From the NCBI GenBank assembly GCA_950295325.1, contig OX485805.1, positions 31,855,501 through 31,919,500 on the forward strand: DNA of 64,000 nt, given 5' to 3'. Position numbers and translations under genes: made by a program. The number at the start of each line of letters is the position of its first letter. Positions within the stretch are counted from its first letter, which is position 1. Below the pieces are notes generated by a model. It had not been told where the DNA came from and searched no databases. It saw nothing but the letters and a program-made list of their open reading frames with translations. Of this stretch, positions 4,968 through 61,261 are shown piece after piece. This DNA is from Polytrichum commune. Its lineage: Eukaryota > Streptophyta > Polytrichopsida > Polytrichales > Polytrichaceae.

Positions 4968-5500
4968 TCAACCTTCTTGTGGAGATCCTTGTCATGGGAC
5001 TCCGTGTTATATAGTTTCTGTTGATAACTTCTAGTGCAAATTCACCATTGCGAGACACTTCATGTATTATATTTGAGAAGCACATGAAAAGATTACTACT
5101 TGATCCAAGTTCATAAGCCTCCTTGCAAGTATGTCCATAGATGCCACTGTTGGTAGCTTCTATTAATACCGCTTCTATTAAGCCTTTATTAAGCTTCCAA
5201 GTTTTCTTGATGTGCGTGGCCACTAGGATGTAACCTAAGGCGTTTGGAAAAGGAGGTTTATGACCTATGGAATGAATAGCACTGTTGGAAATATGCACTA
5301 TTGGCTCAGACGCAAGCGAAAAATTTGGAATTACTTGATACAAGCTTGGAAGGAAGACAAGATTGCAAAATACTGTTGCGATCTGACTCCCCAATTGTGC
5401 CTCATAGGGGTTGATTCTGGTGTGAATTTCACCAACGATGATGATTCTTCATGTTCTTGGCAATCGAAGAGTGTAAACGCAATTTTTGGGCTATCGCCTA
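4968..5500. other. No recognised gene; unassigned minus-strand ORF
   Basis: A 159-codon open frame runs on the minus strand from 5394 to 4915 and overlaps a 141-codon plus-strand frame from 5260. Neither shows a family motif I recognise. The minus-strand frame has ordinary amino acid composition and could be an exon relic. Confidence 0.25.
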
Positions 5501-7815: not shown

Positions 7816-7890
7816 GCAAATGGAGGTGTCGCGGTTAACAGGAATAGTCGTCCTTACTACAATCAAAGATTTGGAAATTCACGATGATCA
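7816..7890 (+). pseudogene. Duplicated tail of the LENG1-like terminal exon
   Basis: 75 bp here match 4896-4970 with a single difference (c at 4949, a at 7869). The copy includes the last 23 codons, the stop codon and the bases after it. Just upstream, agcaggaaaa (7801-7810) also matches 4861-4870, with the 25 bases between reduced to 5. So this is a partial copy with an internal deletion, about 2.9 kb away from the source. Confidence 0.85.
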
Positions 7891-20178: not shown

Positions 20179-20183
20179 GCCCT
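20179..20183. repeat. Target-site duplication GCCCT, right of solo LTR B
   Basis: Partner of 18497-18501. Confidence 0.92.
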
Positions 20184-21990
20184 TGAGGAGATCCCTTCGG
20201 GAATATGCACTCTCAAGGCTTTGGAGGAATTATCCTTCAATGGATGCAAATCTTTACAGAAAATACCGGAAGGGTTGGGGGGGTTGATTTGTTTGAAAAA
20301 ATTATATATGTTGGAGTGCGAGGCCCTTGAGCATATCCCTTCGGGAATATTCACTCTCAAGGCTTTGGAGGAATTGTCATTCAAAGGATGCAAATCCTTA
20401 AGGAAAATACCGGAAGGGTTGGGGGGGTTGGCTTGTTTGAAGAAATTGTACATGTTGGAATGCGAGGCCCTTGAGGAGTTCCCTTCTGGAATATGCACTC
20501 TCAAGGCTTTGGAGGAATTGCTTTTGCATGATTATAAAATTTTGACGGAAATACTGGAAGGGTTGGGGGGGTTGACTTGTTTAAAGACATTTATTATGTG
20601 GGATTGCGAGGCCTTGGAGGAGTTATGTTCCAGAATATGCACTCTCAAGGCTTTGGAGGAATTACATTTCAATGGATGCAAATCTTTACGGAAAATACCG
20701 GAAGGATTAGGGGGTTGACTTGTTTGAAGAAATTGATTATGTGGGATTGCGAGGCCTTGGAGGAGTTCCCTTCGGGAATATGCACTCTCAAGGCTTTGGA
20801 GGAATTGCTTTTGCATGGTTGTAAATTTTTGACTGAAATACTGGAAGGGTTGGGGGGGTTGATTTGTTTGAAGAACTTGATTATGTGGGATTGCGAGGCC
20901 TTGGAGGAGTTCCCTTCCGGAATATGCATTCTCAAGGCTTTGGAGAAATTACATTTCAATGGATGCAAATCATTGAGGAAAATACCGGAAGGGTTGGGGG
21001 GGTTGACTTGTTTGAAGAAATTGATTATGTGGGATTGCGAGGCCTTGGAGGAGTTCCCCTCCGGAATATGCACTCTCAAAGCTTTGGAGGAATTATCATT
21101 CAAAGGATGCAAATCTTTGAGGGAAATACCGGAAGGATAAGGGGGGTTAAGTTGTTTGAAGCAATTGGGCATGAGGGATTGTGAGGTCTTGGAGGAGTTG
21201 CCTTCTAGAGTATGCACTGTTAAGGCTTTGGAGGTATCAAAGGGTGCAAATCTTTGAGAGAAATACCAGAAGGGTTGGGGGGGTTGAATTGTTTGATAGA
21301 ATTAGGCATGAGGGTTTACAAGGCCTTGGAGGAGTTCCCTTCTAGAGTATCCACTCTCAAGGCTTTGGAGGAATTAGATTTGGATGGATGCAAATATTTG
21401 TGGAAAATACTGGAAGGGTTGGGGGGGGGGGTTGACTAGCTTGAAGAAATTGATCATTTGGGAATGCGATGCTCCAAAGGAGTTCCCTAGAAGAATATGC
21501 ATTGTGAAGGCTTTTGACAAACTATCAATCCGTGAATGCTTATGTTTGAAGAAAATATAGGAAGGATCGGAGGTTGATTTGTTTGAAGAAATTGTACATA
21601 GCTTATTGCGAGGCCTTGGAAGAGTTCCTTTCTGGAATATGCACTCTAAGGCTTTAAAGGAATCATCATTCAATGAACGCAACTCTTTGAGGAAAGTAAC
21701 AGAAGTGTTGGGGGGTTTGACTTGTTTGAAGAAATTGAGATGGTGAGGCGTTGGAGGAGTTTCGTATTGGGCTATGAACTTAAGGAGTTTGGAGGCGTTG
21801 TCATTGTACTGTAGGATATCTTTGAGGTATGTGCGGGATGGACTTGAAGGTTTTTGGTGTTTGAAGGAATTGTCCATGGCTTGATATAAACTGACTTTAT
21901 TTGTTCAATGATTTGTTTGTAAGATATGTTAAACAATTTGTGACTTTTCAACTTGGCATACAATTTCACCATTGGATCTTATTGGGCATT

Positions 21991-28624: not shown

Positions 28625-28636
28625 TGTAATGCCTAG
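28625..28636. repeat. Candidate LINE target-site duplication, left
   Basis: TGTAATGCCTAG occurs here and at 41993-42004, on either side of the LINE. Confidence 0.55.
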
Positions 28637-29115
28637 GAGGTTAGCCCGAGGACCCGGGAGGTGATGGAGTGAGAGGACGCTCCGTAAAATGCGGTTAGGG
28701 ACGGAGGATGGATCGGGGAGTTAGCCGCAGAGAGCTAGTGAAGCCCTCTACCTCATGAACAAAGATCGTTGCAATGAACAAGGAGCATGATGGGCTAGCG
28801 ATGCGCTGGGGCATCACTCAAGACAAGCAATGGGATGGTAAGCATGCAAGAATGATATTGCAACATTTGTAGATCTTGATCTAAACTTGTTGAAGTTATT
28901 GCAATGCATTACAAAAGGGTGAAACATGATACTAAGTGGGTGTTGGCACAAGGCGAGTGTTGCTTCTTAGAAGGATAGGCTGGGTTGTTCTTCTTCACCA
29001 TTGCTTACCGTGACTAGCCCACCATGCTCCTAACTCAGTACAAAGATCCAAACTCTTAGGCTACTCTCCATCCAGATTTGAATCGCCCCAACCCGCACAT
29101 GCAAGGCACAACAAA

Positions 29116-30615
29116 ATGACGCATACACCAACACCCAGGCTTGCACATTCTTACATTACTCTTGAAATTGTCTTTATTCCGCAATGTTGTACATCCTACC
29201 TCTCCATACAATATAGTCATCTTTCTACTAACAAATCTTCTATACTAACCATGTATGACAAAAATATGCCCTCTTTTGCAACAAAAGAACTAGCCACGAA
29301 GACTGCCAGCATCAATGTTGGACTACGCCAAGAACTCCACACCAATCTGCAACATCCAGCAAGGAGTCAGATGGAGATGCAGCAGCAAAAACCACACAAA
29401 ACAGTAGATCGGCATCAAAACGGCCAGCCCTCATCCCAACACAGAAATCCACAACCAAAGGTAAGAGCTATAACCTTTAGAAAACACCACTTACCTGGTT
29501 GCAATCATCGCACACTGCAGATCGCCTACAACAGAGCCAGCAGGGTAAAAAGGTTCAAAACAACAAAACAACAAGCAACAAACTCCAGAGCAAGTCACCC
29601 CAGCAAGCAGACGAACACATCACCGATAAACGATCGGCCCACAAACACAGTCCCAGCCCCAAAGCCACGGAAACAACGCACAAAACAGATAACAGACAGA
29701 AGAAGATTACATGCAGTACCAAAATCGACTCCCAAGAGGCAACAACTCGCCAACTCTGCAACGACGACCCCGAACACCTGCCAAACAAGACACCCCAGCA
29801 AGCGAAAAGAAACATCAACAAGCAATCAGCCTACAGATGCAACCTCAAACCCGAAAATACTGCAACAACGGAGACAACATACATCACCAACAAAGTACAA
29901 CAAAAGAAGCATACCTGAAGCATTGGTGCCGACCCAGTCACGACAGCAAAACGCCGACCCTTCGACACCGAAAAACAGCTACACCGACCAGGAGACAGCA
30001 TCCCAGAAGATCGGCACACCGAAGAGTGGCAAACTCGGCCAGGCAACACCGACTTCGAAGAGCATCACCAGCCCCACACCAAACACCAACAGCCCCAACA
30101 CGGTACTAAAGGTGAGCACTTCGAAGACTGACAGCATCAGCCCGGCAACACCGACACCGAAGAACAGCACCAGCCCGGCATCAGAACCCAACAGTACCGA
30201 CCCCGCACCGAAAGCAAGCAGCGCCGACCCTACACCGAAACAGCCTCCAACGACCAGCAGCACTGCAACAAAAAAAAAAAATGCTGAACCCACCGAATCA
30301 CCTCAAACAAACAAGACAAACCAGCAAACCCAGTTGAATGGCATCATAGACGAACCAAGCACAAGCAGAGGCAACTTAAATACAAATGACACAGGGGGAA
30401 AGCAAACACAGAAAGGGGGAAGCTGCCATCAGTGGAAACCTAACAGAGGGTGCAATATGTCATTTCTGTCCAAAATCTCCCATGACAGAAAACATCGACC
30501 AAATGCTACCTCAACTAGCCACTATAAAAGAGTGATGCACACACACTCTCACAATCACAGCTTCTTACTGCCAAACTCTCTCTTCACCCCCCCCCTCATG
30601 TTCAAGCTTGCCTAG
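29116..30615 (+). CDS. Low-complexity open frame in the LINE leader
   Basis: 499 codons from ATG at 29116, dominated by Thr, Ser, Pro, Gln, Asn and Lys, with repeats around TPKNSTSPASEPNSTDPAPK at 30150-30240. The strand is poor in T, so stop codons are rare by chance and a second frame is also open at 29499-29918. It overlaps the next frame by 8 bp. It may be a real disordered N-terminal protein of the LINE or a composition artefact; I lean to the latter. Confidence 0.3.
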   Translation: MTHTPTPRLAHSYITLEIVFIPQCCTSYLSIQYSHLSTNKSSILTMYDKNMPSFATKELATKTASINVGLRQELHTNLQHPARSQMEMQQQKPHKTVDRHQNGQPSSQHRNPQPKVRAITFRKHHLPGCNHRTLQIAYNRASRVKRFKTTKQQATNSRASHPSKQTNTSPINDRPTNTVPAPKPRKQRTKQITDRRRLHAVPKSTPKRQQLANSATTTPNTCQTRHPSKRKETSTSNQPTDATSNPKILQQRRQHTSPTKYNKRSIPEALVPTQSRQQNADPSTPKNSYTDQETASQKIGTPKSGKLGQATPTSKSITSPTPNTNSPNTVLKVSTSKTDSISPATPTPKNSTSPASEPNSTDPAPKASSADPTPKQPPTTSSTATKKKNAEPTESPQTNKTNQQTQLNGIIDEPSTSRGNLNTNDTGGKQTQKGGSCHQWKPNRGCNMSFLSKISHDRKHRPNATSTSHYKRVMHTHSHNHSFLLPNSLFTPPLMFKLA

Positions 30616-31642
30616 ATCGGACCCCTTGTCCTCCTTAACCTCCTATCCAACTTGTCAACTCCTCTATAGACATATAGCTAGTAGAAATGTGCACATACAA
30701 GTAGTAGTCACCCTTAGAAACCACACTACAAAGGCCTTGGAGCCGAGAGTAGGTTACAGTTGCGAGGGCCGGGAGCACCACACGAACCACGGAAGAAGCG
30801 ACAGCGGCAGAAACGAGAGCGACACAGAACCTGCAGCCGAGAAGAAAGCCCCTGGAGAGACCAGCGGAGGCAGCAGCCGAAGCATTCGAAGCGGCCGAAG
30901 CAGGGACCCGAGCATTCGAAGGCAGCAGCCGACCAAGGAGCAGGCAGAAGGACACCGGCAGAGAAACAACGAAGGACTCCGACACCGAAACACCGAGAGG
31001 CGCCCAGGAGAGGAGTCAGGCTCGGGAGCTACAGGAGCGACCCAACAGAGACATCACATCAAACTTCCTATTACCAAGGAAGACCAATCAGGTTCTCCAC
31101 ACAATAACTCATCAAATAGGGCCCCTCTTTATATCAGTAACTCTCATAGTATTAGTATTAGAACTAGGTACTTGTATAAACTCTTAAGGCACAAGGAGAT
31201 GCTTATTTTGCAAGCATACACCCTTGGCCACCACAAAAACATGAACAGAGGGTATGTCCGAAAATGCATGCAAATTCTTAGGACTAAAATAAAGTATGTG
31301 TACCAAAACATAGGACAACAAAACAACTCCTACCCTATTATCGTCATAGATAGATATGCCCACGGCACCCCTAGAAAAGCACATGCTTGGATAAAAATCA
31401 CTAGACAACCCACAGATGATAAATCAAAGCACCACCCCCCTTATTTCAGAAATTACTCCCATATGCATAGATATTTGTATAGTAACTCTACTCAAACAAA
31501 ACACATCTCCCTCTCAAAAGTCATACTTCACCCGGCCCCACAAATTAAGTTGTGGGGAGAAGCAGACCATGAGATTTTAGGGAGAAACCAAATGATACAA
31601 AAAAACTTCAAAATATTAACGATAAGTCTTTTCATGTTCAGA

Positions 31643-33268
31643 ATGTCTCAACGGGCCACAAACTCAAGCTCCTCCCAAAGATACAAAGAGAAACTCCTAG
31701 CCCTAGAAAATAACCCCGATGTTGAAATGTTTGTAACTCAAAAACGTTCATCCTCTACCGCTCAAGCCACCTCAAACCAAAAGAAGGCTAAAGGCAAATC
31801 AAACTCCGGTTTGAAACGCCCTCCCTTTTGGCTAGGGTACCAAGCTATGAATTGGACTAATAGAGGAAAAGGACTCCCCATGGATAGCAATGTCCCGGTA
31901 GCCACGCTAGTAAAAAACGGGATGAGAGAGAAAGAAGCTAGAGAATGTCAATCCGTCATATCTTCCTTCCCCTTTGTCATCCAAGAAGAATGGCCTAACT
32001 CTAGAGAGGACGGTAAGGAGGGTCAACACTTCAACCTCACACAAATCCCTTCGGATGTCGAGGTTGATAAATTTGGCTTCTCATTTGATGACCAAATTGC
32101 AATCATATTTGAAATGGGTGAAATAGATTGGGAAAAAGATACGGTCATGATATTGGTAGAGTCAAGGCTCAAAGAAATGAACATTGAGCTAGGGGACATA
32201 ATAGGGGAACCCATTGCACTCATGTGTTATCACAAATCCACAAAGTGGAGTGGGGTAATTAAGCTACATTTGAAAACCCCCGAGATTGATGGGGTGGGGC
32301 TCCTCCAAGGACTCCGCCCATTCATTCTCAAACTTGATGAGGGTAAATTCAAAAGGGGAAAAATATGTAAAACATATGACTCCCTAGCCTTGAATAACCT
32401 TTTGTCGGTCAAGATCACAAGTGAGGGGCTAGCATCCAAAGAATGGTACGAAATGTTCGAAAAAATCGTAGAAGAGAGTTTCCAAAGGGGAACGGAATAC
32501 GAAATAACTAACATCCAAAAAAAAAAAAAAAACCTCTTCGCATGGATAGTAGCCTCGTCTCCAGAACAAGCACAACGGATGAAAGAGCATCAAATCACCT
32601 ACAACAACGAAATTTTGGACGGGAAACTAGCCGATCAATCACTCGCATCCAAGGATGACATCGCAAGGAAGAACGCCCTCATCCTCATCGCCAAAAATCT
32701 CAACAAAGCAAAAAGTGTGGAAGAAATTGAGAAGAGCATCGAAGCACATATGGGACCCAAGAACGCAATCAACTTCTTCTTCAAACGCGATGACAAAAAC
32801 GGTAAGCATCTAGGCTCATGCAACATTCAATGCCTAAATGCTATGGTATACAAGAAATTTGGCAAGAAAACGGTAAAACTACTCGGTAAATATGTAGAGT
32901 TTACCCCCCACCCTAGGAGCCTTGATGGAGCTAATGCACCTAGTGCAATTGAACTTACCAGACTAGGGTTTAGTGATGTGAACACTGCCCTTGCAAGTAC
33001 CATTGAAACACTTGAGAACATCCCCACAAAGGGAAACCTACACAAAGATCTCATGAAAGAGATAGTCGGAATAAGAGAGGAAATTACCACCATGAAGGAA
33101 GAGCTACGAAGCGAGCAACAACAAATTGCAGAAAAAACCGCGGAAAAATCAACATCAACCCTCTACACACAAATGACACTCCTAAAAAGACAACTCGCCA
33201 CAACCATGCAAGCACTAGAGATGGCTAGCTCCTCGGCCATTGAAGGCAACATGGATACGACAAACTAG
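31643..33268 (+). CDS. LINE ORF1 protein (RNA-binding, coiled-coil)
   Basis: The frame is open from 30608, but I place the start at the ATG at 31643 (541 aa), because upstream the frame is arginine-rich low complexity. A basic Ser/Lys-rich N-terminus follows, then a globular region. Within it, about residues 345-430, ALILIAKNL ... FFFKRD ... HLGSCNIQCLNAM ... KYVEFTPHP has the beta-alpha-beta-beta-alpha-beta look of an RRM. The last ~90 residues (EIVGIREEITTMKEELRSEQ and onward) form a coiled coil. ORF1 proteins of many LINEs bind their own RNA and trimerise by such coiled coils. A 12-A run near 32519-32530 encodes four lysines and is a slippage risk. Base composition is far more even than in ORF2. 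Confidence 0.7.
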   Translation: MSQRATNSSSSQRYKEKLLALENNPDVEMFVTQKRSSSTAQATSNQKKAKGKSNSGLKRPPFWLGYQAMNWTNRGKGLPMDSNVPVATLVKNGMREKEARECQSVISSFPFVIQEEWPNSREDGKEGQHFNLTQIPSDVEVDKFGFSFDDQIAIIFEMGEIDWEKDTVMILVESRLKEMNIELGDIIGEPIALMCYHKSTKWSGVIKLHLKTPEIDGVGLLQGLRPFILKLDEGKFKRGKICKTYDSLALNNLLSVKITSEGLASKEWYEMFEKIVEESFQRGTEYEITNIQKKKKNLFAWIVASSPEQAQRMKEHQITYNNEILDGKLADQSLASKDDIARKNALILIAKNLNKAKSVEEIEKSIEAHMGPKNAINFFFKRDDKNGKHLGSCNIQCLNAMVYKKFGKKTVKLLGKYVEFTPHPRSLDGANAPSAIELTRLGFSDVNTALASTIETLENIPTKGNLHKDLMKEIVGIREEITTMKEELRSEQQQIAEKTAEKSTSTLYTQMTLLKRQLATTMQALEMASSSAIEGNMDTTN

Positions 33269-33695
33269 CTTGGTCAAACAACGCTATGGTAATAAACAAT
33301 CCATACGTACTACTAGTATCTATAGATACTCTAATATATAATAAAAACCCCAAAAGAAAAACAAATCCAATAAAAAGGGTCAAACCAACAAAATCACAAC
33401 TCCTAAACAAAAACAAAACTCAACTAAAACGGGCTCGGCCTATCGGCCTCGCCAAAAAAAGAAAAGATGAAAAACAACAACCACCCACCCAAACTACTCA
33501 AAACCAACAAAGAATAAGAACACACCAACACAAAAAACATATACAGCAATCAAACAACCCAAACACACAACAAACATCAAAACCAAAGAAACCCCCACTC
33601 TAGGCATCCCTCATAACAACTACAATAGCAAAACTACCAACAAACCAACATACCTACAAAATAAATACAAACCTTTCCACTCACACAAAGATGAG
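33269..33695 (+). other. ORF1-ORF2 spacer of the LINE
   Basis: A 105-codon Lys/Asn/Gln/Pro frame (33286-33603) lies here without a recognisable domain. The sharp shift to A+C-rich, G-poor sequence begins here, just after the ORF1 stop. Confidence 0.45.
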
Positions 33696-36600
33696 ATGAT
33701 AACAAACCCAACCCAACTACATACCAAACCAACTCACATAATGGCAATAGAAAACTCACATCTACTAATAACCATATTCAACACAATACACCCCAAATCC
33801 AGAATAACAATAAACCCACATACCAAAAAGAAAGATGCAAAAACCCACTACAAAACTAATACCCAAAAACTAAACAAGGACACTATCATATTTGAACAAA
33901 CTCGGCCTACCAACCTTACCAAAATAATAATAATAATCAAAAGAGAAAATAAAGGAAAAAAACTAAAAACAAATAATAATAAAACAAATACTCTCCAACT
34001 ACTCAACCTAGGCCAAAAAAGGCATATGATCAGGCCACCTCACGAAAATAACAAACATGCACACTCTAGGCCAACACACAAAAACACTAGACCCCCTAAA
34101 AACACCAGTAAATACAATAACAACCCGCCACACGGGACCCAACAATACACATACAACACCACAAAAAATTACCAACATCAAACAACTACCACCAAAAGTA
34201 AAAAACCTTGGCCCACCGGCCTCGGCCAAAAAACATACGCAATCATACTACCCCATATAAATAATAAAAACCAAATGATATATACATCATCCAAAACCCA
34301 TACAAAAAATACTCGAAAACACAATAACCTCCAACACCAAAACCATAATACTCACAAATACCCTAATCCCCCCAAAAAAATCAACAAACAAAAACACCTT
34401 ACTAACAAAAACAACATCACCAACATATCAAACTACCTAAATAACCACTTCTCGAAACTCCTACTACTCCTGTGTGGAGACATCAAAACTAATCTAGGAC
34501 CAATGCCAAACATACTTAAAACGCACCCACCATCACACAAAAGTAGGAATAAAACGTATTTTATACCTTGCACAATAAAACTACACCCAGAGTACCAACA
34601 TTTAGCAAAACAATTTGCAGCATGTCTAAAAACAACACATCCAAATCACACTGCCACATCTATAGAACATCCACACCTCTCAAGATACATACAAGAAAAC
34701 CAACATCACCCACCTCAACGCATATTATACGCACTCATTACCACGATAAGTCCATTACTAGAAACATGTGACCACCAATTAATACACATACCCAACCCAG
34801 ACTGGACAACAACACTCCTTGAAAAAATAGCACTTCTCCAAAACCCCCCAGAGAGACACATCCTAAAAACACACCCATACACAGAATTTATAAACACCAA
34901 CCAAAACCTAATTAACCCCCCCAATACCATTCACAAACAACTATATGATTTTATAAAACAAAACAATAATCCCCCAAACCTTCAACTACTAACAAACAAA
35001 TTCCCATTCTTACCCGATAATTTACTAATAGAATCCCTCAAATACAACGAACCCATAACAGAATACTCACACCCACCCCCACTACCCAATATACCATTAC
35101 CGCAAAACCAAGAAATACAAACAACTAACCATAACACATACATCATCACATGGAACGCCTCATCCCTAAACACAGCCCTTCCAAACATATATAACTTAAT
35201 CGCAAACACCACAACAAGCCCAGCAATCATTACAATACAAGAAACCAAACTAACCGCAACAAAATCAACAAAATATATACAAAACCTATTTCCAGAATAC
35301 AAGCTAATTTTTAATAACACACATGCTCTAACACGATGCATACAACAGAGAATGCCGTATACCCCGGCAAGAGGAGGACTCCTCACTCTAATAAATAACA
35401 AATATTCATACCCAGGAAATATCACCAAAATACCTACCCCAACTGAAATTTCACCATATTTACAAATCATACAAATACAAAACACACCACTACAACCATG
35501 GCTAATCCTCCACATGTATATGCCGTCCCACTTAGAAGACATCCAATACATCGCAACAATTCAACAACAAATAACACAACAAATCTTGGCACACCCAAAC
35601 CACTCTTACATACTATGCGGTGACTTTAACAGAGACATAGCCCTTATAGGGAGACAAAACGAATCCAGCATAACACCACCACAAACAGAAGACATGGAAT
35701 GGCGTACATTCACAGACACTCTAAATTTAACTTACATCCCAACAAATAGCACAGTTACTAGACAAGGAGGACAAAACTATACTCAAACAAGCTTAATTGA
35801 TGGATATTATATTCAAACGCCCAATAACACACTATATACTTCAACCACAAACCATGACTACAACCTAAATTCAGACCACTCACCAGTCACACTACAAATA
35901 CCACCCAACACACTCTTAGCCCGCCCCACACAACAAAAAATAAACAAACCACCAAGGATTCTAAATCCCATTCCAAAAGATAACATTGAAAAACTTAAAA
36001 TATTATTCTTCGAAGAAAACTCCCTCCAAATAAACGAACTCACCTCAATACTGATAAATAAACACTTAACAGACAACCAATGGCAAGCATCTTGCACCAA
36101 ATTAGACTACTTAATACAACAAATATCAGAAAAAACCCAAGAAACTTGCAGCACCCGCCCTTTACCTGCATTAACACACCGCACAACTCAACAAGGAGGA
36201 TTCTTGCCAAGAAAACTACAAAAACAATGGAAAAAACACTTATCTACATACCACCTAATAAGAAAAACAATTCACATTACAAAAACCATACCATTATGGC
36301 AAAACCACCCATTAATAGAAGAACTAAAAAACCACAACCACATTAGCATCCCCCCACCACCTCACCCAGATATAAACCCACAAGAATGGATCAAAACATT
36401 AGCAGAACTAGCCAAAACCGCAAACAAACAAGCACGAAAAATTACAACTAAATACACCCAAGAATGTGTCAAAAAAACCATCGCGAAATACAGACAACTA
36501 TATGAAAAAAACCCAAAAAAAATAAATAACAAATTTTTTAAGAACCAAGACACACCACCGTTAGACTGCATTAGAGATAGAAACAACAACATGCTAACCA

Positions 36601-37064
36601 GCCCAGAAGACATAGCAAGCGAAATCCATATACAACAAACAATTAGTAACAAACCTACAGTTCCAACATGCTATCACCAGCCAGAACACACAAATAATTA
36701 TACATGTGGAGTTAAACAATACCCATGGCATGACCTTGATGGATTTATAATAGATACAAGAGGAGACCCACAAATACCACTGCATAAGTACTTCGACCAA
36801 GAAACATATGACTTATGTTTAAAACATCTATCCAATAACAAAACACCAGGCCCAGACAAAATTCCAAACTCAATACTAAAAAACATGTCTGACAGCTTTC
36901 ATAAAATGCTACTTCTTTTTTTCACACACTGCTATAAAAAAAAAAATACCAACATCATGGAAAACAAGTCTAACCATACTTTTATACAAAAAATGAGACC
37001 CATCACTATTAACAAACCACAGGCCCATAGCACTTGCAAACACAATCTACAAACTATTTACTAG
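33696..37064 (+). pseudogene. LINE ORF2, part 1: 2A-like motif, AP endonuclease, start of reverse transcriptase
   Basis: 1,122 codons. The first 250 residues are Lys/Asn/Thr-rich low complexity. At residues about 253-270 (34456-34506) stands LLLLLCGDIKTNLGP, a 2A-like sequence. The AP-endonuclease runs about 35138-35905 with WNASSLN, IQETKL, GDFNRD, SLIDGYY and SDHSP, matching the Asn, Glu, Asp and Asp-His catalytic landmarks of exonuclease/endonuclease/phosphatase nucleases that nick the target. Then come TPGPDKIPNSILKN and the reverse transcriptase N-terminus. The frame is lost at an A-run near 36938-36948; in the other frame RPIALANTIYKLF continues, but with a TGA at 36993-36995 where Gly is expected. 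Both lesions fall within about 55 bp. Confidence 0.88.
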
Positions 37065-39867
37065 CACACTAACACTAATACTATCAGCATACGGTGAAAA
37101 ACATCAAATATTACACAATAGTCAAGAAGGATTAAGAGCAGGAAGAAGCACTTCTAGACAACTACAACTACTCATAGCAGCCTTGGAAGACGCTAGATTT
37201 ACAAACCAAAACATATACCTCATATACATAGATTTCAAAAATGCATTTGGCTCCCTTGACCACGCTAGACTTTTAGCTATAATGAAAGACCTTGGGTATC
37301 CATTAGATGCCGTAACACTAATTGGAAATATCTACACACATTCTACCACCATATTTACCGGCGAACACTTCGGCAAAACAAAACCAATACCCATACAAAG
37401 AGGTACCATCCAAGGTGACACCCTAAGCCCATACTTATTTCTAATATTCCTTGAACCATTACTCAGATGGCTACAAAGGGGCAAAAACAGGTACACATTT
37501 GGCACATCGAACTTAACCATCAGCACTGCAGCATACGCAGACGACCTAGCCGCTATAACAAACAATCTCCAGTCACTACAAATACAATTAAACAAACTAG
37601 ATAAATTTTGCGAATGGGCTGGAATGGATTTAGGTGTACAAAAATGTGCCATCACGGGTTGCCCCAACAAATCCAAATTAAACCCTGAAAATTTCAAAAT
37701 CCAAATACAAAACCACAACATATCTTACAGAAACCAACCAATTCCCGTTCTACACCAAAACGAACCTTATGTTTACCTAGGTATTCAACTAGTACCCTCA
37801 CTAAAATGGAAACTCCAAACACACATCACCACAAATAAAATAAACCACCAATGCAAACATCTAGCCAAATGCCCTGCCACAATTAAACAGAAAATCAATA
37901 TGGTCAACACCGTCATCAGAGCAGGCATAGCATACAGTTTCTACGCAGTCCCATACTCACTTCCGACTATCAAAAAACTAGACAAAAAGATTATAGGAAT
38001 CCAAAAGACAATATGCGGACTACCAAAATGCACAGCAAACGTAATAACCCAACTACCCCACGAACTCTTTGGCCTTGAAGCCTTTTCATTAAAAAACGCA
38101 TACTTACGATGCATCAGCGAACAACTAAGAAATGCACTTAACGACCAAGGGAGACTAGGTATAATATACAAAGGACTTATACAGCACATATTAGCTAAAT
38201 ATGGAGGCGCAGAAGAAATCCCAAGAATAACACAACACGATTGCATTAGATCACCGACCATACGTACATTATTTCTCTTAAAAACTGCAAGAGGAATTCA
38301 CCTCAAAAGCACAAATGAAAACTTCCAACTACATATGACAAAATTGGAACAAGAATGGCGTACACAAGCTACTAACGAACTCCCACACCTCAACCCCGAT
38401 CTATCACTCAAACTTTTACACAAACTATTAATCCATAACATCTATAAAATACAACACATCACCCTCCCTAACGGAACAACCCTGATGACATCAGACGACT
38501 TCAGAACCTATCACAAAACACCATCCAAACTAGAAAAAAACGCACTTCAAATAGCTGAACAATTGTTTTGTCACCCAAGATGCACACCAAACTGCCCAAA
38601 TCCCTGTACAAGACATCCACCCGCCCGTACGCTTAAACCAAAATACATCACAAACAACCAAAACCTAGTACCAAGAGCACCAAATAACCCACCCCAACTC
38701 CCAATCCCACAACAACAACTTCACCCAAACCCACCCCCAAACGTAAAAAACAACCCCACAAGATTCGCCATTAATATAATAATAGATCACAAAACAAAAA
38801 TCATAAAAGACAAATATAAAATAACGAAGAAATTCAACATATACCTATGTCAATGGACTCTCCAAAATAATATTATATACAACAAATGGATGCCACAAAG
38901 AGAACTCTTCCCCTTCAACCACCCAACAGTCATCGCGCATAACATTACACTATTAACAGAATACTACACAAAGGTGCAACATAGACATTATAAAACAATT
39001 CTTAACACACACTTTATTCCTGAACAAAACAGAGATACAAGATTCATCCCCCCATCCACAGCTATCCCACTCACACAAATATTCATAACCGAATGTAACC
39101 CAAAAAAAGATATCCTTACCAACAAAGATACTATACAAATACACAATGAGGAAGCCCATATATATGAGGACACTGGAAAACACCTTATCACCATACCAAC
39201 AACTAGACTAAACTGGCTATGGCAACAATACAACAAAGCAAGATACAACTCACACGGGCTAGTACCACAAACACAAACATTTGAAAAGGAAGTGGTATGG
39301 CTTTACCAGAGATACAAAAGTAAAGTCCCCAAAAATGGCTCAACAAAAACAACACTACATACCTTACCCACAAACATAATAAACTCCCTCATTACCACCA
39401 TTAATATCTCACACTCCTACTTTTCTTCACCAGTAACATGCTCAACACAAATATCAAAATTCTACTCCCCTTTTGTAAGAGACAAAGTCTTCGGAGCACT
39501 AGGAACCGCCTTCCAATATAAATGGGAAGGCATAGGCTACGCTCACCCACATAATGAAGAAACAACCCAACAAACAATCCATTGGGCGAGGTTAGCAGCC
39601 AAAAATGATCCTAACACCATCACTATAGTAGTAATACCAAACACAAACTGGTATCAAGACCCCTCCCCTTACATCGGACCATTCCCAGATACCCACGTCA
39701 TCATCCACTTCGCTGCAGACACAATCACATACGAAGAACCAACAATCCCACAAGAAAGACAAAAAAACAAAAACAGAGCCACTTGCAATACAAATTCTAT
39801 GCATACACCATCGAAATCACAATATTGGCACATCCCATCAAATGTACACACTCAAAATAATACCTGA
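37065..39867 (+). pseudogene. LINE ORF2, part 2: reverse transcriptase catalytic core and methyltransferase-like domain
   Basis: The open frame 37183-39867 and the 40 codons before it carry the polymerase core: YIDFKNAFGSLDH (motif A, catalytic Asp), RGTIQGDTLSP (motif B) and AYADD at 37531-37545 (motif C), then a thumb-like region to about 38270. After a Cys/His patch (CHPRCTPNCPNPC, about 38570) and a long unassigned linker, 39460-39735 reads FYSPFVRDKVFGALG, GYAHPHNEE, TITIVVIPNTNWY and PDTHVIIHF. That order resembles PCIF1-type adenine-N6 methyltransferases, though NPPF is AHPH here. This assignment is tentative. Frame shifts near 39780 and 39840 lead into the RNase H. Confidence 0.85.
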
Positions 39868-40445
39868 AAACCTACAAATCCCACAATACTACCTCCATAA
39901 CGCCCCACCCACCCCGCACAACACACCAGTTAATAAAAGCAAAAAATGGAATAAACTCATATACCCACCTGCAACTTATCAGTCCACACTTAACACACCA
40001 CCACTTCCAAACTTTGTAACAAACACCACACTCAAATTCCAACCACAACACAGCTACTATACCGATGGCTCCTTCATACCTCCCACCCAAAAAGCTAATA
40101 GACATTGGAAAAAAGAAAAAGCTGGCTATGGAATATACAACCCAACCAAGATAGACATGCAAATCTCGAAAAGACTACCAGGGCTACAAACATGCTACCG
40201 AGCAGAACTAATGGCCATCCATAAAACACTCAAATTAATATCTACTAAATACCCAAACGAACCTGCACATATATTTACAGATTGCCTCAATTGCCTATAT
40301 AATCTAAACACACATATTAAACACCCTACCACGCATAACAACCATGCAGATAAAACAATATTAACAAACATGGTAGAAATATTAAAAACCCGCACCCAAC
40401 CTACCACATTTTACAAAGTCAAAGCACATAAACATTGAAGGAAAC
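39842..40445 (+). pseudogene. LINE ORF2, part 3: RNase H
   Basis: The frame carries YYTDGSF (Asp at 40063), CYRAELMAIH (Glu at 40204), FTDCLNCLYNL (Asp at 40279) and KVKAH (His at 40427), which are the four landmarks of type I RNase H. The enzyme removes the RNA strand after first-strand synthesis. The frame ends in TGA at 40436-40438, while the next frame continues INIEGNEQADKLAKIGA, the usual sequence after the His. So one small indel near 40430 breaks it. Confidence 0.87.
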
Positions 40446-41507
40446 GAACAAGCAGACAAACTTGCAAAAATAGGAGCCAAAAAACTATACTCTACCGCTT
40501 CAAAATCATACGAGCACGCACATACCACACCATTCTATTTTCAAAAAGACATATGGCCAGGACCTATGAAACGACCAGACAAAGGTCCTGTGAGATGCCT
40601 ACAAACATATCTAACCAAACACGACCAAGAAAATAATATTGTAATCATGACAAACCAATTCCCTAACATCAGCAAATGGACTAGGAACCCAGATATTGAT
40701 AACGAACTATCCAATGTTTTTTGGCACAACCCTATGATCACAGATGCACAAAAAACTAATATACTAAAATTTCGCACCGGCCAATACATGGGCAATGCAA
40801 GGAAACAACTATTTTTTGGAAGAGAAAGATTCCCCTCGATAACATGCTCTATATGTAACTCTGAAGATGCGGACACATGGCTTCACGTACTGCTGAAATG
40901 TAACCACCATCATATCCACGCCCTAAGAGTTAAAAGACATAACAAAGCAGTATGGGAATTGAGGAAACTAATCATATCATCACAACAATCAAGATGCTAT
41001 ACCCTCATGAACGCAGGAACATTTAATAATAACCCCCAAGAAAACACAGTACCCCCATGGCTATTAGCATGCGCCTGTGAACAAAGATGTCACTGTAATG
41101 CCAAATTTAAACCAGACATTCTTTGTGTAAAAGGTCACCCGTACAACAATGACCCACCATCAAACCCATCAAACAACCTCACAATACAATTCGTTGAATT
41201 TACCTACTGTAACGACAGATTCCCACAAGAAACAAATACTAATAAAATCCAGAAATACCAACCCCTAATAAATAACATTACAAAATTAGGATGGAAAGTT
41301 GACCCACTCATAGTCATAACAGCAGGCGCTAGAGGCACAACCCACGCCCCCTCAATAAAACTCCTTGAAACAAATTTCAAGATACCAAAAACCACCATTA
41401 AACACACATTCAAGGAAATCAACACCATTGCCATACAACATGCCGGATCAATTATCCTACATAAAAGGAAAATAGAAAACAACCAACCCCTACCCCTTGA
41501 CCAATAA
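40446..41507 (+). pseudogene. LINE ORF2, part 4: CCHC motif and restriction-like endonuclease module
   Basis: The frame is open to TAA at 41507. It contains CSICN...H...C (C-x2-C-x9-H-x4-C, first Cys at 40845), then VKRHNKAVWEL, then KPDIL at 41109-41123, FVEFTYCND with Glu at 41197, KIQKYQPL and a hydrophobic strand VDPLIVITAGARG. CCHC, R-H-N, K-P-D and a following acidic residue and K-Y-x-x-L are the signature of the restriction-like endonuclease in R2/NeSL/CRE-type LINEs. The gap between KPD and the acidic residue is 26 residues, longer than the 12-14 usual in R2-like proteins, because of a Pro/Asn/Ser insert. APE-type LINEs normally lack this module. Confidence 0.75.
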
Positions 41508-41992
41508 ATAACACAAAAATTAACAACAACAAAATATATATTTATATATTATATTACAGGATTAGCTCAAAGCGAACACTTGTCTCAGGACGAAGGGATA
41601 GGGCCGGCTGGTTCTCAACAAACTTTCCTGCCTATGATAAGAATCACTAGCAGCACCAAGCCATGTATACCACTATAAACGCTCAAACGGACACAAAGGG
41701 AATCGAACCCGGACCGTTTAAATGGTAGCACAAACACTCCAACCAACCTTGGAACCATGACTTGGTGTCCTCAAACAAAAGCCAACACCTATATATATCC
41801 ACACGAATAATCAACACCAATAAGGTTACGAGTACCTATCCCTAGTTACTAAAGTGTCTATTCCCGAAAGGGGAGAGTAGTCTTGATACAATGGCCCTTT
41901 GTCCTGTGGGCTTTGGCTCATTGTCGAGACGAACAGACACTCTATTCACGCCGGCCCTCCAAAGAGGACATGTGTTCATATCTACATCTATC
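41508..41992 (+). other. LINE 3' UTR with an antisense tRNA-like box
   Basis: About 485 bp, less skewed in composition than ORF2. Near 41700-41712 GGAATCGAACCC is the reverse complement of a perfect pol III B-box (GGGTTCGATTCC). About 35 bases away in the same reversed reading is TGGTTGGAGTG, a weak A-box. No poly(A) or simple-repeat tail precedes the candidate target duplication. Confidence 0.55.
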
Positions 41993-42004
41993 TGTAATGC
42001 CTAG
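41993..42004. repeat. Candidate LINE target-site duplication, right
   Basis: Partner of 28625-28636, identical over 12 bp. Confidence 0.55.
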
Positions 42005-48292: not shown

Positions 48293-51128
48293 TGTGGTAC
48301 TTTTGGGCCACCCCCTTTCGAGGGAGCCTAAAAGTATCACACAAGCCCTTCGGTGAAGGTGGCCTGCATTTGCAGGCGCCCAAGCCGAACCCGGATGATA
48401 GGTGTATAACGTGAGTAGTTAGATTTTTAAGGGAGATTAAATATGCGTCGTAGTACCTCCGGAGGTTAGGCCTTAGTTTTTTACTAGTGTGGCTTTAAAC
48501 TCCACTAACCAATTTCATATCTAGTTCTAACCTTAACCTACAACCTATTCTACGCGCAGACGCACCAGCCTTGAAACCAAGGCAATCCTAAATTGTGAAT
48601 TGGAATGGTTCTGATACACCCAACCGGGTGTGACTCATACCACCCTAACTCAACGAACGGAATAACGACAATTTGATGGACCATTCAATTCTTCCTATTT
48701 CTTTATTTAGTTCTATTTAGTTTTCTAAGCGGGGGAACTTGGCCTAAGTCCCACCCTTCACACAAATTCCTTCTTAATTACTTACTTTTGTTTGCACGTC
48801 CTAACTTACTACATTAACATATTAGGCATCACCCCTTACCTCGGGTCTCTTGCCAACAAGGGTTTACGATTTATTTGGTATGTTTTGATTGTTAAATGTG
48901 TTTACACTGGATAGACCACGAAATGCAACTCAATGGGACCAGGGTGACGGGCGACCTGTAGGTTCAACCTGTTGCGCAATCTTCATAAATTGGGGCCATT
49001 ACTCCCAATCTATGGGACCAACAACATAATAGTGGATTCGCGGGTCATTAACCCCACCTTTCCACCAACAACATTCAGAGTGGTCGTGTCGGTGATTAAT
49101 CCGACTTACCACACACGAAACTTGCTAATAAATGAAGCTACTACCACAAAACATACCAAGGGCCCCGAAAACAATGGAATTGGGTACTCCCTTGGCGGTC
49201 AAGTGGTCAAGCCACTTGACCTTACGAGATAGGTGAGTGGGTTTAGAGATGCGTACCTTAGCCGTGCTCCCTCCAATCCTAAATGGAAGGCTTAAGGTTA
49301 GTTAATTTACCTCAATTTTCCTCGGTTGATTTGGGCTTGATGTAGGCCGAGCCGCTACCTCCTTCCTTGCTCCACTTTCCGAGCGTCGACCTTGCCTCCT
49401 TCTTTGTAACTAGTTTGGTAGTAAGCGTACCTTAGTTAACAATTAAAATATAGTGTTATTTTGCCCTGTAATTTAATCCTAAGCATAATATTTATACTTA
49501 GTGCACCAAATTATCTTTCCAATGATCTAAAAATCACTCTAATCGGATAAGAAATGCAAAAGTTATGAGGGTTGGAAGTGTGAGGTCGATTCAACCGACC
49601 CTTCCAACCCACCTATCTACCTTCTAACTTCAAAAATTCATAGCACATTCCTTACTACTTGGATCTAGGCTTTCCTTATACCATTGGAAAGCTATGAACA
49701 AGCTCTAACTAGAAAAATTATGACATCAGCAGGTTAAGCTAATAGAAATTCAGCAGACTCCTTGTAACACAGCAGTCAATCAAGAAGGCTTAAACTATGT
49801 ATCTCGCCTTCAACAATTCATATCTAATTCAAATCTTAGTCAAATCAAACATTCTATATGACCCTGGAGAGATATTACAAAGATGTATTTGATAAAAATA
49901 TGTGATTAGAAAGGTAAGCCGAAGTGAACCCAGCAGGTCCTCTGTAATGCAGCAGTCAACCAAAAGTTCTCAAACTATGTGTCCCATCTTGCACAATTCA
50001 TATCTAATTCAAATCATGCTCAAATCAAATGTTCTAAGCCATTTTGGAAAGCTACACAAAAGTTCTACTTGGGAAAAATATAATTTCTTGGAATTAAAAT
50101 TCCTATTGGGCTCGCAGGTCTGATCCAGCAGCCGCTACCCACAAGACCACCCAATTTTTCTACTCCATCTTTGAAAATCCATAACTAATTGTCATCTCAA
50201 CCAAATCACAAATGGAAAACGGCTATGGATAGCTATATGAAATCTCTCTAAGAGAAAAATGATAAGTATCTTGTTCTAGCTTTTGAACTAAGCCTTAAGG
50301 CATTGGCAGATGAGGTCTATAATGCCTCTACTCAAAACTCTACCATCCAACCTACCTCTACAAAAGAAGGAATAATTTTGTTGGTGTGTTAATAAACACA
50401 CAACCTAACTAGGAGAGAGAGAGTAGAGGAGGTTCTCAAGCCTTTCTTTTAGACCATTGAGAATACATGCTAAAGGATTTTTTCCTAACTACATTGAAGC
50501 AGGGCTTCGCCCAAAAACTAGAGAAAGAGAGAGAGCTACAAGGTGGAAGGAGGGGTTTTTAAACCCTCTCACAAAAGGGTTGGACCCCTCCTCCACCGGA
50601 TCCATTTTTCAAACCCTTTCCCGAAATTTTGGCTCGGGGGTTTTCCCGGTTGAGGTTGCCACCCTCTCGCCGAGGTGGCTCTGACAAAAAACTTTTAGAA
50701 ATCTTTCTAATTTTTCCGCCATCGAGTTGGCAAGGGGGCAAGTGGGCAAGTATCCCCCTTGCTCTCTTTCTTTTTTGTCTTCAAAATTCTTCACGCCGAT
50801 TTTATCTTCTTACGTAAAACACCTCCAATAGTCTTGTGTGCCTCACACTAACTAATAAACTAACACTTGCTTAGCTAGCATCTACTAACATTTGCTTAAT
50901 AACTAGCATCTACTAATATTTGCTTAGCTAGTTGTTTTTACTAGCTAGCACATTTTTTCTACTTTGCTATCTTCTAGCACTACTTAGTTTCATTTTGACC
51001 TTCCTTCTTCTAGGCTAAATGCTAAATGAACTAATTTTTCCTAAATTCCCTATCAATTCTAACTTTTAGTGCTAACATTCTAACTAAAAGTGATCCCGCA
51101 GAGTGGTGGACCACTCAAAGGGTTCACA
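48293..51128 (-). mobile_element. Solo LTR D1, family 2
   Basis: 2,836 bp starting TGTGGTAC and ending GGTTCACA, with GAATA duplicated at 48288-48292 and 51129-51133. TG...CA ends and a 5-bp duplication identify it as an LTR inserted within LTR C. I set the orientation arbitrarily so that D2 is plus. The frames inside (for example 48972-49232) are short and recur in D2, but show no retrotransposon protein. Its left 50 bp can form a hairpin, GTGGTACTTTTGGGC with GCCTAAAAGTATCAC. Confidence 0.85.
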
Positions 51129-51292
51129 GAATATATATAACTTGACTAATCCCACACTATATCATCTTATATTCCTTAATTTTGGGTAAGGTCACATCCT
51201 TAGCCTTCTCCAATGTCCACCCGGCCGCCTTAGCTACGCATGCCTTCAATGATTTTCCTCGTGTGAATCGAGTCCTCGCCGTTGATTCCACA

Positions 51293-54284
51293 TGTGAATC
51301 CTTTGAGTGGTCCACCACTCTGCGGGATCACTTTTAGTTAGAATGTTAGCATTAAAAGTTAGAATTGATAGGGAATTTAGGGAAAATTAGTTCATTTAGC
51401 ATTTAGCCTAGGAGAAGGAATGTCAAAATGAAACTAAGTAGTGCTAGAAGATAGCAAAGTAGAAAAAATATGCTAGCTAGTAAAAGTAACTAGCTAAACA
51501 AATGTTAGTAGATGCTAGCTAAGCAAATATTAGTAGATACTAGTTATTAAGCAAATGTTAGTAGATGCTAGCTATTAAGAAAATGTTAGTAAATGCTAGC
51601 TAAGCAAGTGTTAGTTTATTAGTTAGTGTGAGGCACACAAGACTATTGGAGGTATTTTACGTAAGAAGACAAAACCGGCTTGAAGACTTTTGAAGACAAA
51701 AAAAAAAAAAACAAGGAGGCTACTTGCCCACTTGCCCCCTTGCCAATTCGATGGCGGAAAAATTAGAAAGATTTCTAAAGGTTTCTTATCGGAGCCATCT
51801 CGGCGAGAGGGTGGCAACCTCAACCGGAAAAACCCCCGAGCCAAAATTTCGGGAAAGGGTTTGAAAAATGGATCCGGTGGAGGAGGGGTCCAACTCTTTT
51901 GTGAGAGGGTTTAAAAACCCCTCCTTCCACCTTGTAGCTTTCTTTCTTTCTTTAGTTTTTGGGCGAAGCCCTGCTTCAATGTAGTTAGGAAAAAATATTT
52001 CAGCATGCATTCTCAATGGCCTAAAAGAAAGGCTTGAGAACCTCCTCTACTCTCTCTCCTAGTTAGAATGTGTGTTTATTAACACACCAACAAAATTATT
52101 CCTTCTTTTGTAGAGGTAGGTTGGATGTTAGAGTTTTTAGTGGAAGTATTGTAGACCTCATCTGCCAATGCCCTGAAGGCTTAGTTCAGAAGCTAGAACA
52201 AGATACTTATCATTTTTCTCTTAGAGAGATTTTATATAGCTATCCATAGCCGTTTCCCATTTGTGATTTGGTTAAGATGACAATTAGTTATGGATTTCCA
52301 AAGATGGAGTAGAAAAATTGGGTGGTCTTGTGGGTAACGGCTGCTGAATCAGACCTGCGAGCCCAATAGGAATTTTAATTCCAAGCAGTTGTATTTTTTC
52401 TAAGTAGAACTTTTGTATAGCTTTCCAAAATGGCTTAGAATATTTGATTTGAGCATGATTTGAATTAGATATGAATTGTGGAAGATGGGACACATAGTTT
52501 GAGAACTTTTGGTTGACTGCTGCATTACAGAGGACCTGCTGGGTTCACTTCGGCTTACCTTTCTAATCACATATTTTTATCAAATACATCTTTGTAATAT
52601 CTCTCCAGGGTCATATAGAATGTTTGATTTGACTAAGATTTGAATTAGATATGAATTGTTGAAGGCGAGATACATAGTTTAAGCCTTCTTGATTGACTGC
52701 TGTGTTACAAGGAGTCTGCTGAATTTCTATTAGCTGAACCTGCTGATGTCATAATTTTCCTAGTTAGAACTTGTTCATAGCTTTCTAATGGTATAAGGAA
52801 AGCGTAGATCCAAGTAATAAAGAATGTGCTATGAATTTTTGAAGTCAGAAGGTAGATAGGTGGGTTGGAAAGGTCGGTTGAATGGACCTCACACTTCCAA
52901 CCCTCATAACTTTTGCAATTCTTATCCGATTAAAGTGATTTTTAGATCATTGGAAAGATAATTAGGTGCACTAAGTATAAATATTATTCTTAGGATTAAA
53001 TTATAGTGCAGAATAAATACTTTATATTTTAATTGTTAACTAAGGTACGCTTACTACCAAACTAGTTACAAAGAAGGAGGCAAGGTCGACGCTCGGGAAG
53101 TGGAGCAAGGAAGGAGGTAGCGGCTCGGCCTCCATCGAGCCCAAATCAACCGAGCATAATTGAGGTAAATTTACTAACGCTAGCCTTCCATTTAGGGTTG
53201 GAGGGAGCGCGGCTAAGGTACGCATCTATAAATCCACTCACCTATCTCGTAAGGTCAAGTGGTTTGACCACTTGACCGCCAAGGGAATATCCAACTCCAT
53301 TGTTTTCGGGGCCCTTGGTATGTTTTGTGGTAGTAGCTTCATTTATTAGGAAGTTTTGTGTGTGGTAAGTCGGATTAATCACCGACACGACCACTCTGAA
53401 TGTTGTTGGTGGAAAGGTGGGGTTAATGACCCGCGAATCTACTATTATGTTGTTGGCCCCATAGATTGGGAGTAATGGCCCCAATTTATGAAGATTGCGC
53501 AACAGGTTGCACGTCACCCTGGTCCCATTGAGTTGCATTTCGTGGTCTATCCAGTGTAAACACATTTAACAATCAAAACATACAAAATAAATCGTAAACC
53601 CTTGTTGGGAAGAGATCCGAATCGGAAACTTAACTCGGTAGAGTGACACCACCCTTCGAACCATTGATGTCCGAAGGGCTTGAGATGTTATTCGACCTTC
53701 AAAGGACCTGCACGAGGCCTTAGAAGGTTTCGAGGTAAGAGGTGCACCAACCAGGTAAGGGGTGATGCCTAATATGTGAATGTAGTGAAGTAGGAGGTGC
53801 AAACAAAAGTAAGTAATTAAGAAGGAATTTGTGTAAAGGGTGGGACTTAGGCCAAGTTCCCCCGCTTAGAAAACTAAATAGAACTAAGTAAAGAAATAGG
53901 AAGAATTGAATGGTCCATCAAATCGTCGTTATTCCGTTCATTGAGCTAGGGTGGTATGAGTCACACCCGGTTGGTGTGTATCAGAACCATCATAATTCAC
54001 AAACTAGGATCGTCTTAGTTTCAAGGCTGGTGCATCTGCGCGTAGAATAGGTTGTAGGTTAAGGTTAGAACTAGATATGAAATTGGGTTAGTGGAGTTTA
54101 GAACCACACTAGTAAAAAAACTAAGGCCCAACCTCCGGAGGTACTACGACGCATATTTAATCTCCCTTAAAAATCTAACTACTCACATTATACACTTATC
54201 ATCCGGGTTCGGTTTGGGCATCTGTAAGTGCAGGATACCTTCACCGAAGGGCTTGTGTGATACTTTTAGGCTCCCTCGAAAGGA
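51293..54284 (+). mobile_element. Solo LTR D2, family 2, inverted relative to D1
   Basis: It starts TGTGAATCC, the inverse of the D1 right end, and follows D1 in reverse nearly base by base down to CTCCCTCGAAAGG. There the last ~23 bp and the right-hand target duplication are missing, and LTR C resumes with TACTACACGAACC. It carries about 140 bp near 53614-53752 that D1 lacks. Together D1 and D2 form a large inverted repeat with ~2.8-kb arms around a 164-bp piece of LTR C. Confidence 0.85.
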
Positions 54285-55543
54285 TACTACACGAACCTTC
54301 GCTTGTTAATTCCATGAAGCACATAAGTTTAAGTATTAACAAATACTTGTGTAACTTATGGTGGCCTCTCCTTCACAAGCCTTCACATCCCATTACTAAG
54401 TTCAACCTTAGAATGTATCGGTTAATTAATTAGTTAAACAACATAGTTGATTAAGCTATGTATTAACCCAACTTATATGTTAATATTCCTAGCCTAATTT
54501 CAATTGACTTCTATCCCCTTAATCCTAACTAGCCTAGCCTAATCTCACTTATCTACTAATCCCCTCAATAATTTATCAAGCCCTTTCACCCATCGGTGCA
54601 CAACCCCTATCCCTTTAAGCAACCGGTGTCATTTTAAGCTCAGTATTGATATATCATCCTAGATTCTACGTTGTTTGAATGGGACGGCAGCCCGTCAGGG
54701 CCCTTCCCCCGCCCGTCATTCGACAATAGGAATCGGATTCCAGCTGACTCCTCTCACTGGGACCTGGTACTAGCTTCTGTTTGACACCGAAAGGCCTCCA
54801 ATCCTCGAAATGCCTCATGGCCCAGCTCCTTCGGTCTCCTGTGTGAGACTGCCCTCGGTCTTGGTTCAACACTGAAGTTGCCTCCACAACTCAACTTGGC
54901 TACTGTCCTCAGCTACATTGTCCAGACCTACCCCCTTTGAGAGAACTCTACTGAATCCGACTCTGCCTCATCTCGCAGAGAGCGACAGAAACTTATTTAT
55001 GAGAACCAACAACTTCTGGTCTAATTATTAACCACCCTCTAATCCTAAAACTTAAGCACTATTAATATCTCTAAACTAAATACTATATATTTATGTGGTG
55101 GGGGTTCCAACCTTATAAACTAAGTCCATATCTATGAATGCTCTCCATCCAAATGTAAATTCATAACTTCTAACAATATCACATGCCCCAACTTTTAAAT
55201 AAGAGACTTTGCACATCCACATAAGTATATGGCTAATCAATGTAAATCCAAGTATTCAAACTAAATTTGAACTTTAAATCATTCACACCCAAACTATTAC
55301 TAACAAGAGGTCAAGCCCTCTTCAAGGCCAACTAGCCTTGGCTCCTAACCTTACACCCATGCATACACACGTGCTCCTATCTTGCTTCCCACACACCCAC
55401 ACTTATAACACGTGGGGTGCCAAGGAGCACGAAAGAAAGAAATGATGAGTGAGGGAAGAACGAGGTCTTAAATAGTGAGTTTGAGGAAGTGAGCACCTTC
55501 AAGGCTCACCATAAGCCTTCGAAATCTCCTCCTATTTTGTAGG

Positions 55544-55551
55544 CTCTCATC
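55544..55551. repeat. Target-site duplication CTCTCATC, left
   Basis: Repeated exactly at 56945-56952. Confidence 0.92.
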
Positions 55552-56944: not shown

Positions 56945-56952
56945 CTCTCATC
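56945..56952. repeat. Target-site duplication CTCTCATC, right
   Basis: Partner of 55544-55551. Confidence 0.92.
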
Positions 56953-57229
56953 TTATCTCCTAAGTCTTCCCCCCTCAAACGATCAACAAAGATCCTAATT
57001 CAAATATTTAACTAACATTGGCTTTCTACCTACCACACTTTCCACCAAGGTCATGTCCTCACACTACTAAACTTACTCAATCCACTCCACACAAGCCTAA
57101 TGCTTAAACTTAGCTTTCTTCAAGCTTCATTTTTTTTATATTTTTGTGAATAGTCATAAATCATAAAAATACCACTTGTAATGTTTTACAAGTGTTAACA
57201 ACATATGTGGGCATCATTTTGGGCTCATA

Positions 57230-57234
57230 GGTAT
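57230..57234. repeat. Target-site duplication GGTAT, right of nested LTR C
   Basis: Partner of 48169-48173. Confidence 0.92.
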
Positions 57235-61200: not shown

Positions 61201-61261
61201 GTGTGCGACATCTTAGGATTCTAGAAGATTTGACAACGCATTATGTTAGTCCAAGTTAAGA

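Follow-up and report, generated by a model that had tools for sequence, protein, structure and literature searches.

The 64,000-nucleotide stretch of DNA analysed here (the window) very probably holds a full-length, inactivated copy of a multi-copy long interspersed nuclear element (LINE) of the Dualen/RandI type, in the nuclear genome of a bryophyte-like plant. The protein encoded by its second open reading frame (ORF2) combines an apurinic/apyrimidinic-type endonuclease (APE) and a restriction-like endonuclease (RLE), both of which are probably working enzymes in the family, with a domain related to the PCIF1/CAPAM methyltransferase that may bind the RNA cap. Dualen/RandI LINEs were reportedly described from green algae by Kojima and Fujiwara in 2005.

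ORF2 encodes two endonucleases

ORF2 is broken in places (Table 1), and we regard its domain order as natural because unbroken relatives share it. P0077 and P0090 (57% and 59% identity) run from the end of the reverse transcriptase (RT) to the RLE as single predicted proteins, P0050 (57%) does so from the APE into the RT, and L009, a locus in the same genome, has the full order in one open frame of 2,371 codons.

The sequence-only reading of this DNA had proposed an AP-type endonuclease 5' of the RT and a module of CCHC, RHN and KPD...E motifs after the RNase H, and both are borne out. Besides its two Pfam matches, the APE has near-invariant catalytic columns: N in 22 of 22 rows and E in 21 of 22, followed by D (25), N (25), D (24), S (22), D (25) and H (25), each of 25. 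The RLE motif columns, including CCHC and RHN, are conserved in 17-18 of 18 rows. That reading had also staked its claim on the C-terminal region resembling a restriction-like endonuclease, and the RLE matches the R2 endonuclease both by profile and by predicted fold; used as a single query against the PDB, the window's RLE gave no useful match. The RNase H catalytic columns are likewise conserved (D 20/21, E 20/20, D 19/19 and D 19/19). The protein shows traits of a Dualen/RandI element, with a PD-(D/E)XK RLE lying C-terminal in the same chain as APE, RT and RNase H. The R2 trait of an RLE as sole endonuclease is absent, because the APE is present.

Between the RT and the PCIF1-like domain, two of eight scanned segments gave sub-threshold Pfam Chromo matches (E 2.1e-4 and 4.6e-4), and PHD-like fingers below the Pfam cut-off occur in P0014 and P0016; the window's own segment has no Chromo or PHD match in Pfam.

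Table 1. Features of the LINE insertion, with positions in the window
Feature	Position	Strand	Remark
Whole LINE insertion	28637..41992	+	about 13,356 bp; 3' limit accurate to about 4 bp
5' direct repeat TGTAATGCCTAG	28625..28636	.	putative target-site duplication; identical to 41993-42004
ORF0, open frame of 499 codons	29116..30615	+	coding status doubtful
ORF1	30608..33268	+	conserved core about 31919-33265
ORF2	33696..41507	+	order APE-RT-PCIF1-like-RNase H-RLE; one stop and three frame changes
2A-like motif GDIKTNLGP	34476..34502	+	near ORF2 start; deviates from D[VI]ExNPGP
APE-type endonuclease	35145..35888	+	Pfam PF03372 and PF14529
Reverse transcriptase	36768..37788	+	RVT_1 E 8.6e-20; frame change and stop in N-terminal part
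Chromodomain-like stretch, tentative	38761..38913	+	pattern from alignment
PCIF1/CAPAM-like methyltransferase domain, catalytic motif lost	39250..39642	+	sequence and predicted fold
RNase H	40052..40480	+	PF00075 E 6.8e-9; frame change near 40430
CCHC knuckle and RHN	40845..40943	+	C, C, H, C, R, H invariant in 10/10 rows of RLE alignment
Restriction-like endonuclease core	41040..41504	+	PD at 41112-41117, E at 41196-41198
3' end, short ATCT-type tail, not poly(A)	41977..41992	+	same tail type in four other copies
3' direct repeat TGTAATGCCTAG	41993..42004	.	identical to 28625-28636

The element is a bounded insertion in a multi-copy family

The sequence-only reading had suggested a candidate length of about 13.4 kb, which agrees with the 13.36-kb insertion delimited by direct repeats. 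The 12-bp repeat is perfect, and its only exact matches on this strand of the window are the two flanking copies. Because two other copies of the element finish in TGT or TGTA at the 3' end, the 3' repeat may begin with bases that belong to the element, giving a target-site duplication (TSD) of 8-12 bp. The limits are consistent with comparison to other copies: four stop matching the window at 41984-41996, and in the only copy with its 5' side retrieved the match begins at 28663. The skew in base composition also shifts near both insertion ends. The downstream flanks of the window and of four other copies are five different sequences, so the element is not bound to a single target sequence. 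LINEs are known to insert by target-primed reverse transcription, and the repeat and tail in the window are consistent with this route.

A piece of ORF2 has at least 52 matches in the genome, including the window, at 64-100% identity. Two of the 52 belong to one copy, so that they represent at least 51 copies, spread over all seven large contigs. This number is a minimum because 51 of 3,688 candidates were scored and loci L009-L013 are not among the matches. For six of the 52 matches the surrounding frame is open over 2,625-2,924 codons, with no stop within the match. The family was probably active recently, although the copy in the window is dead.

Upstream of ORF2, ORF1 probably encodes the element's ORF1 protein. 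Compared with another copy (C1, 0.9 Mb), its core is 97.8% identical with a ratio of nonsynonymous to synonymous substitution (dN/dS) of 0.05, against 0.28 for the entire ORF1 and 0.63 for ORF0. Residues 438-852 of ORF1 resemble the regions 5' of ORF2 in L009, L012 and L011 at 27-30% identity; among the five loci compared (L009-L013), no ORF1-like match was found for L010 and L013. Pfam scans gave nothing above the cut-off for ORF1 and no match for ORF0. Near the ORF2 start, the canonical 2A motif is found in L010 and in the C1 0.9-Mb copy, and L009 retains NPGP without the E. Such 2A sequences are known from non-long-terminal-repeat elements (PMC4981915). At about 1456-2300 of L010, a tandem pair of 2A-like NPGP motifs shares a single open frame, which looks like a duplication of the ORF2 start.

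ORF2 also encodes a PCIF1-like domain

PCIF1/CAPAM is a cap-specific methyltransferase, whose target is the first adenosine that follows the mRNA cap. By sequence and predicted fold, the domain embedded between RT and RNase H in the LINE polyprotein is homologous to its methyltransferase core. The L009 domain alone matches PF12237 at E 8.7e-8, the same family is carried by 11 of the 37 protein-database matches at E up to 1e-10, and the Haematococcus proteins P0016 and P0020 align across the region. The catalytic NPP[FY] motif is absent from the window and L009-L013, where the asparagine occurs in 0 of 6 and AHP, AFP or AYP takes its place.

Because fold and constraint are kept and the catalytic motif is lost, the domain probably binds. 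Its relative was solved with capped RNA (PDB entries 6irz and 6is0, by their titles), and its ligand may be the capped 5' end of the element RNA, held non-catalytically. An active methyltransferase that modifies the element RNA through a divergent motif is unlikely, although several observations favour it: NPEY in six relatives (P0001, P0009, P0010, P0011, P0024 and P0108), the proline kept in 21 of 26 rows and the asparagine-proline in 7 of 26, and, in the PCIF1-like alignment, an invariant or almost invariant serine-proline of the PCIF1 'FASPLN' stretch. Against it stand the replacement of the motif in all six sequences from the window and L009-L013 and an asparagine in only 9 of the 26 rows.

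Both endonucleases are under constraint

Rough dN/dS values between L009 and L010-L013 were low across ORF2: 0.11-0.20 for APE, 0.04-0.06 for RT, 0.10-0.16 for the PCIF1-like domain, 0.04-0.06 for RNase H and 0.08-0.16 for RLE, with 0.25-0.35 for the stretch 5' of the APE. Since both nucleases retain their catalytic residues and are constrained, each presumably has a job. A reading in which one matters and the other is a fading relic finds some support in PMC4640811, which describes other LINE groups as encoding either RLE or APE, with Dualen alone having both. We consider this reading improbable, given catalytic columns that are nearly invariant in both nucleases across very divergent relatives and dN/dS of 0.08-0.20 for both domains.

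The element groups with Haematococcus proteins, outside L1 and R2

A protein search at E up to 1e-10 returned 37 matches, among which the only named organism was Haematococcus lacustris, a chlamydomonad. At E up to 1e-3 there were 102 matches, the first 66 at 50-82% identity over the matched part; the only organism named there, for the distant match P0136, is a bacterial metagenome-assembled genome (MAG). For the RT tree, 76 rows were picked from 130. The window and 18 further rows, of which five come from the same genome, form a 19-row clade (support 100/100) that is nested in a 55-row clade with Haematococcus (100/94), apart from L1 and R2. All four Haematococcus rows carry the APE family in precomputed Pfam annotation, and three (P0016, P0020 and P0023) have the CCHC-RHN and RPD motifs. 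Approximately unbiased (AU) tests on 27 rows rejected a grouping of the six plant rows with five L1 rows (p 3.3e-5) and with two R2 rows (p 2.4e-6). Membership of L1 and of R2 was rejected on these tests and on the position of the RT outside both groups.

These results agree with the sequence-only reading, which had placed the element in or near Dualen/RandI and had named an RT inside an APE-only clade such as L1 as the outcome that would overturn it; tree and AU test both put the RT outside L1. The alternative of an L1- or R2-clade LINE that gained the other nuclease independently, with no Dualen/RandI kinship, draws on the absence of a named Dualen/RandI reference from the comparison and on the RT scores against the PDB, where three R2 chains reach 103-107 bits, two others (8gh6 and 8ibw) 55-59, and L1 chains 73-75. 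As the L1 scores fall within the 55-107-bit range of R2, they do not by themselves decide between the two, and with the AU rejections and the 100/94 clade containing Haematococcus we hold independent gain to be very unlikely. A further suggestion, that a plant copy might record a transfer between algae and plants, was not substantiated: the window's clade is diverse and long split from the sampled algal rows, a pattern compatible with old presence and with an old transfer alike.

The host is probably a non-flowering streptophyte

The genome spans 408 Mb and has seven large contigs (77.9, 70.3, 59.2, 59.1, 52.9, 44.7 and 42.1 Mb), with CCCTAAA repeats at one chromosome end; the window lies within a contig of 59 Mb. 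Seven chromosomes and some 400 Mb might be in keeping with certain mosses. A 146.6-kb plastid contig has an open matK and, by reading of translations, chlL, chlN, atpB, rbcL, accD, ycf4, cemA and petA; the 10-kb stretch of it that was read is 27% GC. The matK had no match among plasmid records and no family in NCBIfam. matK marks streptophytes, plastids as AT-rich as this one are characteristic of mosses and liverworts, and to our knowledge flowering plants lack chlL and chlN. With the rbcL-accD-ycf4-cemA-petA block and CCCTAAA, matK, chlL and chlN support what had been called a land-plant-like genome as that of a non-flowering streptophyte. That the contig is algal or protist contamination is hardly credible: the database relatives are unnamed or algal, save the one distant bacterial-MAG match, but the window sits inside a 59-Mb contig, copies occur on all seven large contigs, and leucine-rich repeats (LRRs) in the window match plant disease-resistance LRR families.

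A chance chimera, in which an APE-only LINE inserted beside, or was fused by assembly to, an R2-like element, might be read into the spread of ORF2 across several frames, but it is refuted by the single predicted protein P0077 and the unbroken frame of L009, and with P0090 and P0050 also single proteins it has practically no likelihood.

Points against the interpretation

Several points weigh against this interpretation. The dN/dS values are rough, with dS mostly >1 (0.8 to 3.1) and one value undefined, and L013 is itself decayed, so that only their pattern counts. The RT tree has long branches and uneven composition, the AU groups were defined after the first tree was known, and the RLE and PCIF1 alignments consist of selected rows. 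With no named Dualen/RandI sequence among the rows, membership is set by architecture and by the grouping with Haematococcus. The C1 0.9-Mb copy, the sole other copy with both ends, shows no TSD (longest common word 6 bases), and the P0016 segment alone has no PF12237 match. The proposed cap binding is guessed from homology, and a domain that has lost the motif could just as well be structural.

Other features of the window

A near-perfect palindrome of about 6 kb occupies 48314-54283, with arms 89-98% complementary around a centre near 51,210; both the centre and the ends pair with 13,125-13,522 as well, and the whole resembles a fold-back or head-to-head repeat. At 20179-21738, about ten 144-bp tandem units encode plant-type LRRs in frames that are broken in places. 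Two copies of a dispersed repeat (19632-20179 and 55272-57230) share three blocks, 87-92% identical and in the same order, and a 75-bp direct repeat with 99% identity lies 2.9 kb apart at 4896-4970 and 7816-7890. At 61260-61652, a sub-threshold match to SH3_Tf2-1 (E 3.5e-4) marks a fragment similar to the terminal part of a Gypsy-type polyprotein. One scan of viral contigs gave one pattern match and no relative of the element.

Discussion

The simplest guess for the two nucleases is that APE and RLE would each cut one strand, and the RLE and CCHC knuckle may grip RNA and target in the manner of R2. By analogy with its relatives, the PCIF1-like domain would hold the capped 5' end of the element RNA without catalysis. 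Tentatively, and with more doubt than confidence, we propose that Dualen-type LINEs captured a PCIF1-family cap methyltransferase that became, in the plant lineage, a non-catalytic cap reader selecting capped full-length RNA and perhaps helping to finish the 5' end, while the two nucleases take one strand each. If true, such a checkpoint would help explain how a 13-kb element is copied at full length; we know of no other LINE with a 5'-end checkpoint of this kind. The element may show how LINEs recognise their own RNA: the PCIF1-like domain connects LINE biology with the mRNA cap and allows a direct test of whether a LINE reads the 5' end of its own RNA. Among the openly licensed papers surveyed, for the broader searches the best-ranked of many, none reported a PCIF1 domain in a LINE, and the founding Dualen paper might describe the domain under another name.

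Dualen connects the RLE and APE classes of LINE, and its position has been used to argue that APE replaced RLE (PMC4640811). A 2015 survey gives Dualen/RandI from green algae only (PMC4438587), other reports place it in Chlamydomonas and relatives (PMC8226300) and, in 2025, in cryptophytes (PMC12747079), and for flowering plants Table 3 of PMC3747384 has L1 and RTE only. In the same set of openly licensed papers we found no Dualen report for a land plant. The present lineage, diverse and with long frames still unbroken, offers new material on the RLE/APE question from a land-plant-like genome, in a tractable group.

Comparison with known systems

With Dualen/RandI elements, as described in PMC4640811, PMC3636483, PMC3747384 and PMC4438587, the element shares APE and RLE in one element and RNase H; its 3' repeat is of a kind other than poly(A), as it is in all 8 of the RandI families from green algae that Table 3 of PMC3747384 lists. 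It differs in its bryophyte-like host and has a PCIF1-like domain between RT and RNase H. Some relatives have protease-like stretches 5' of the APE, namely an OTU domain in P0004 (Pfam) and, on visual inspection, Cys/His patterns in P0006, P0016 and P0018, whereas the Pfam scan shows no protease domain in the window. With L1 it shares APE and RT in ORF2, but its RT lies outside the L1 clade, an RLE is present and there is no poly(A) tail. With R2 it has in common an RLE with a CCHC knuckle and the same predicted fold; R2 is not known to have APE or RNase H, and the element, with its five different 3' flanks, has no single target site. The PCIF1-like domain is like PCIF1/CAPAM in core sequence and predicted fold, and unlike it in being embedded in a LINE and in having lost NPPF in the window and L009-L013.

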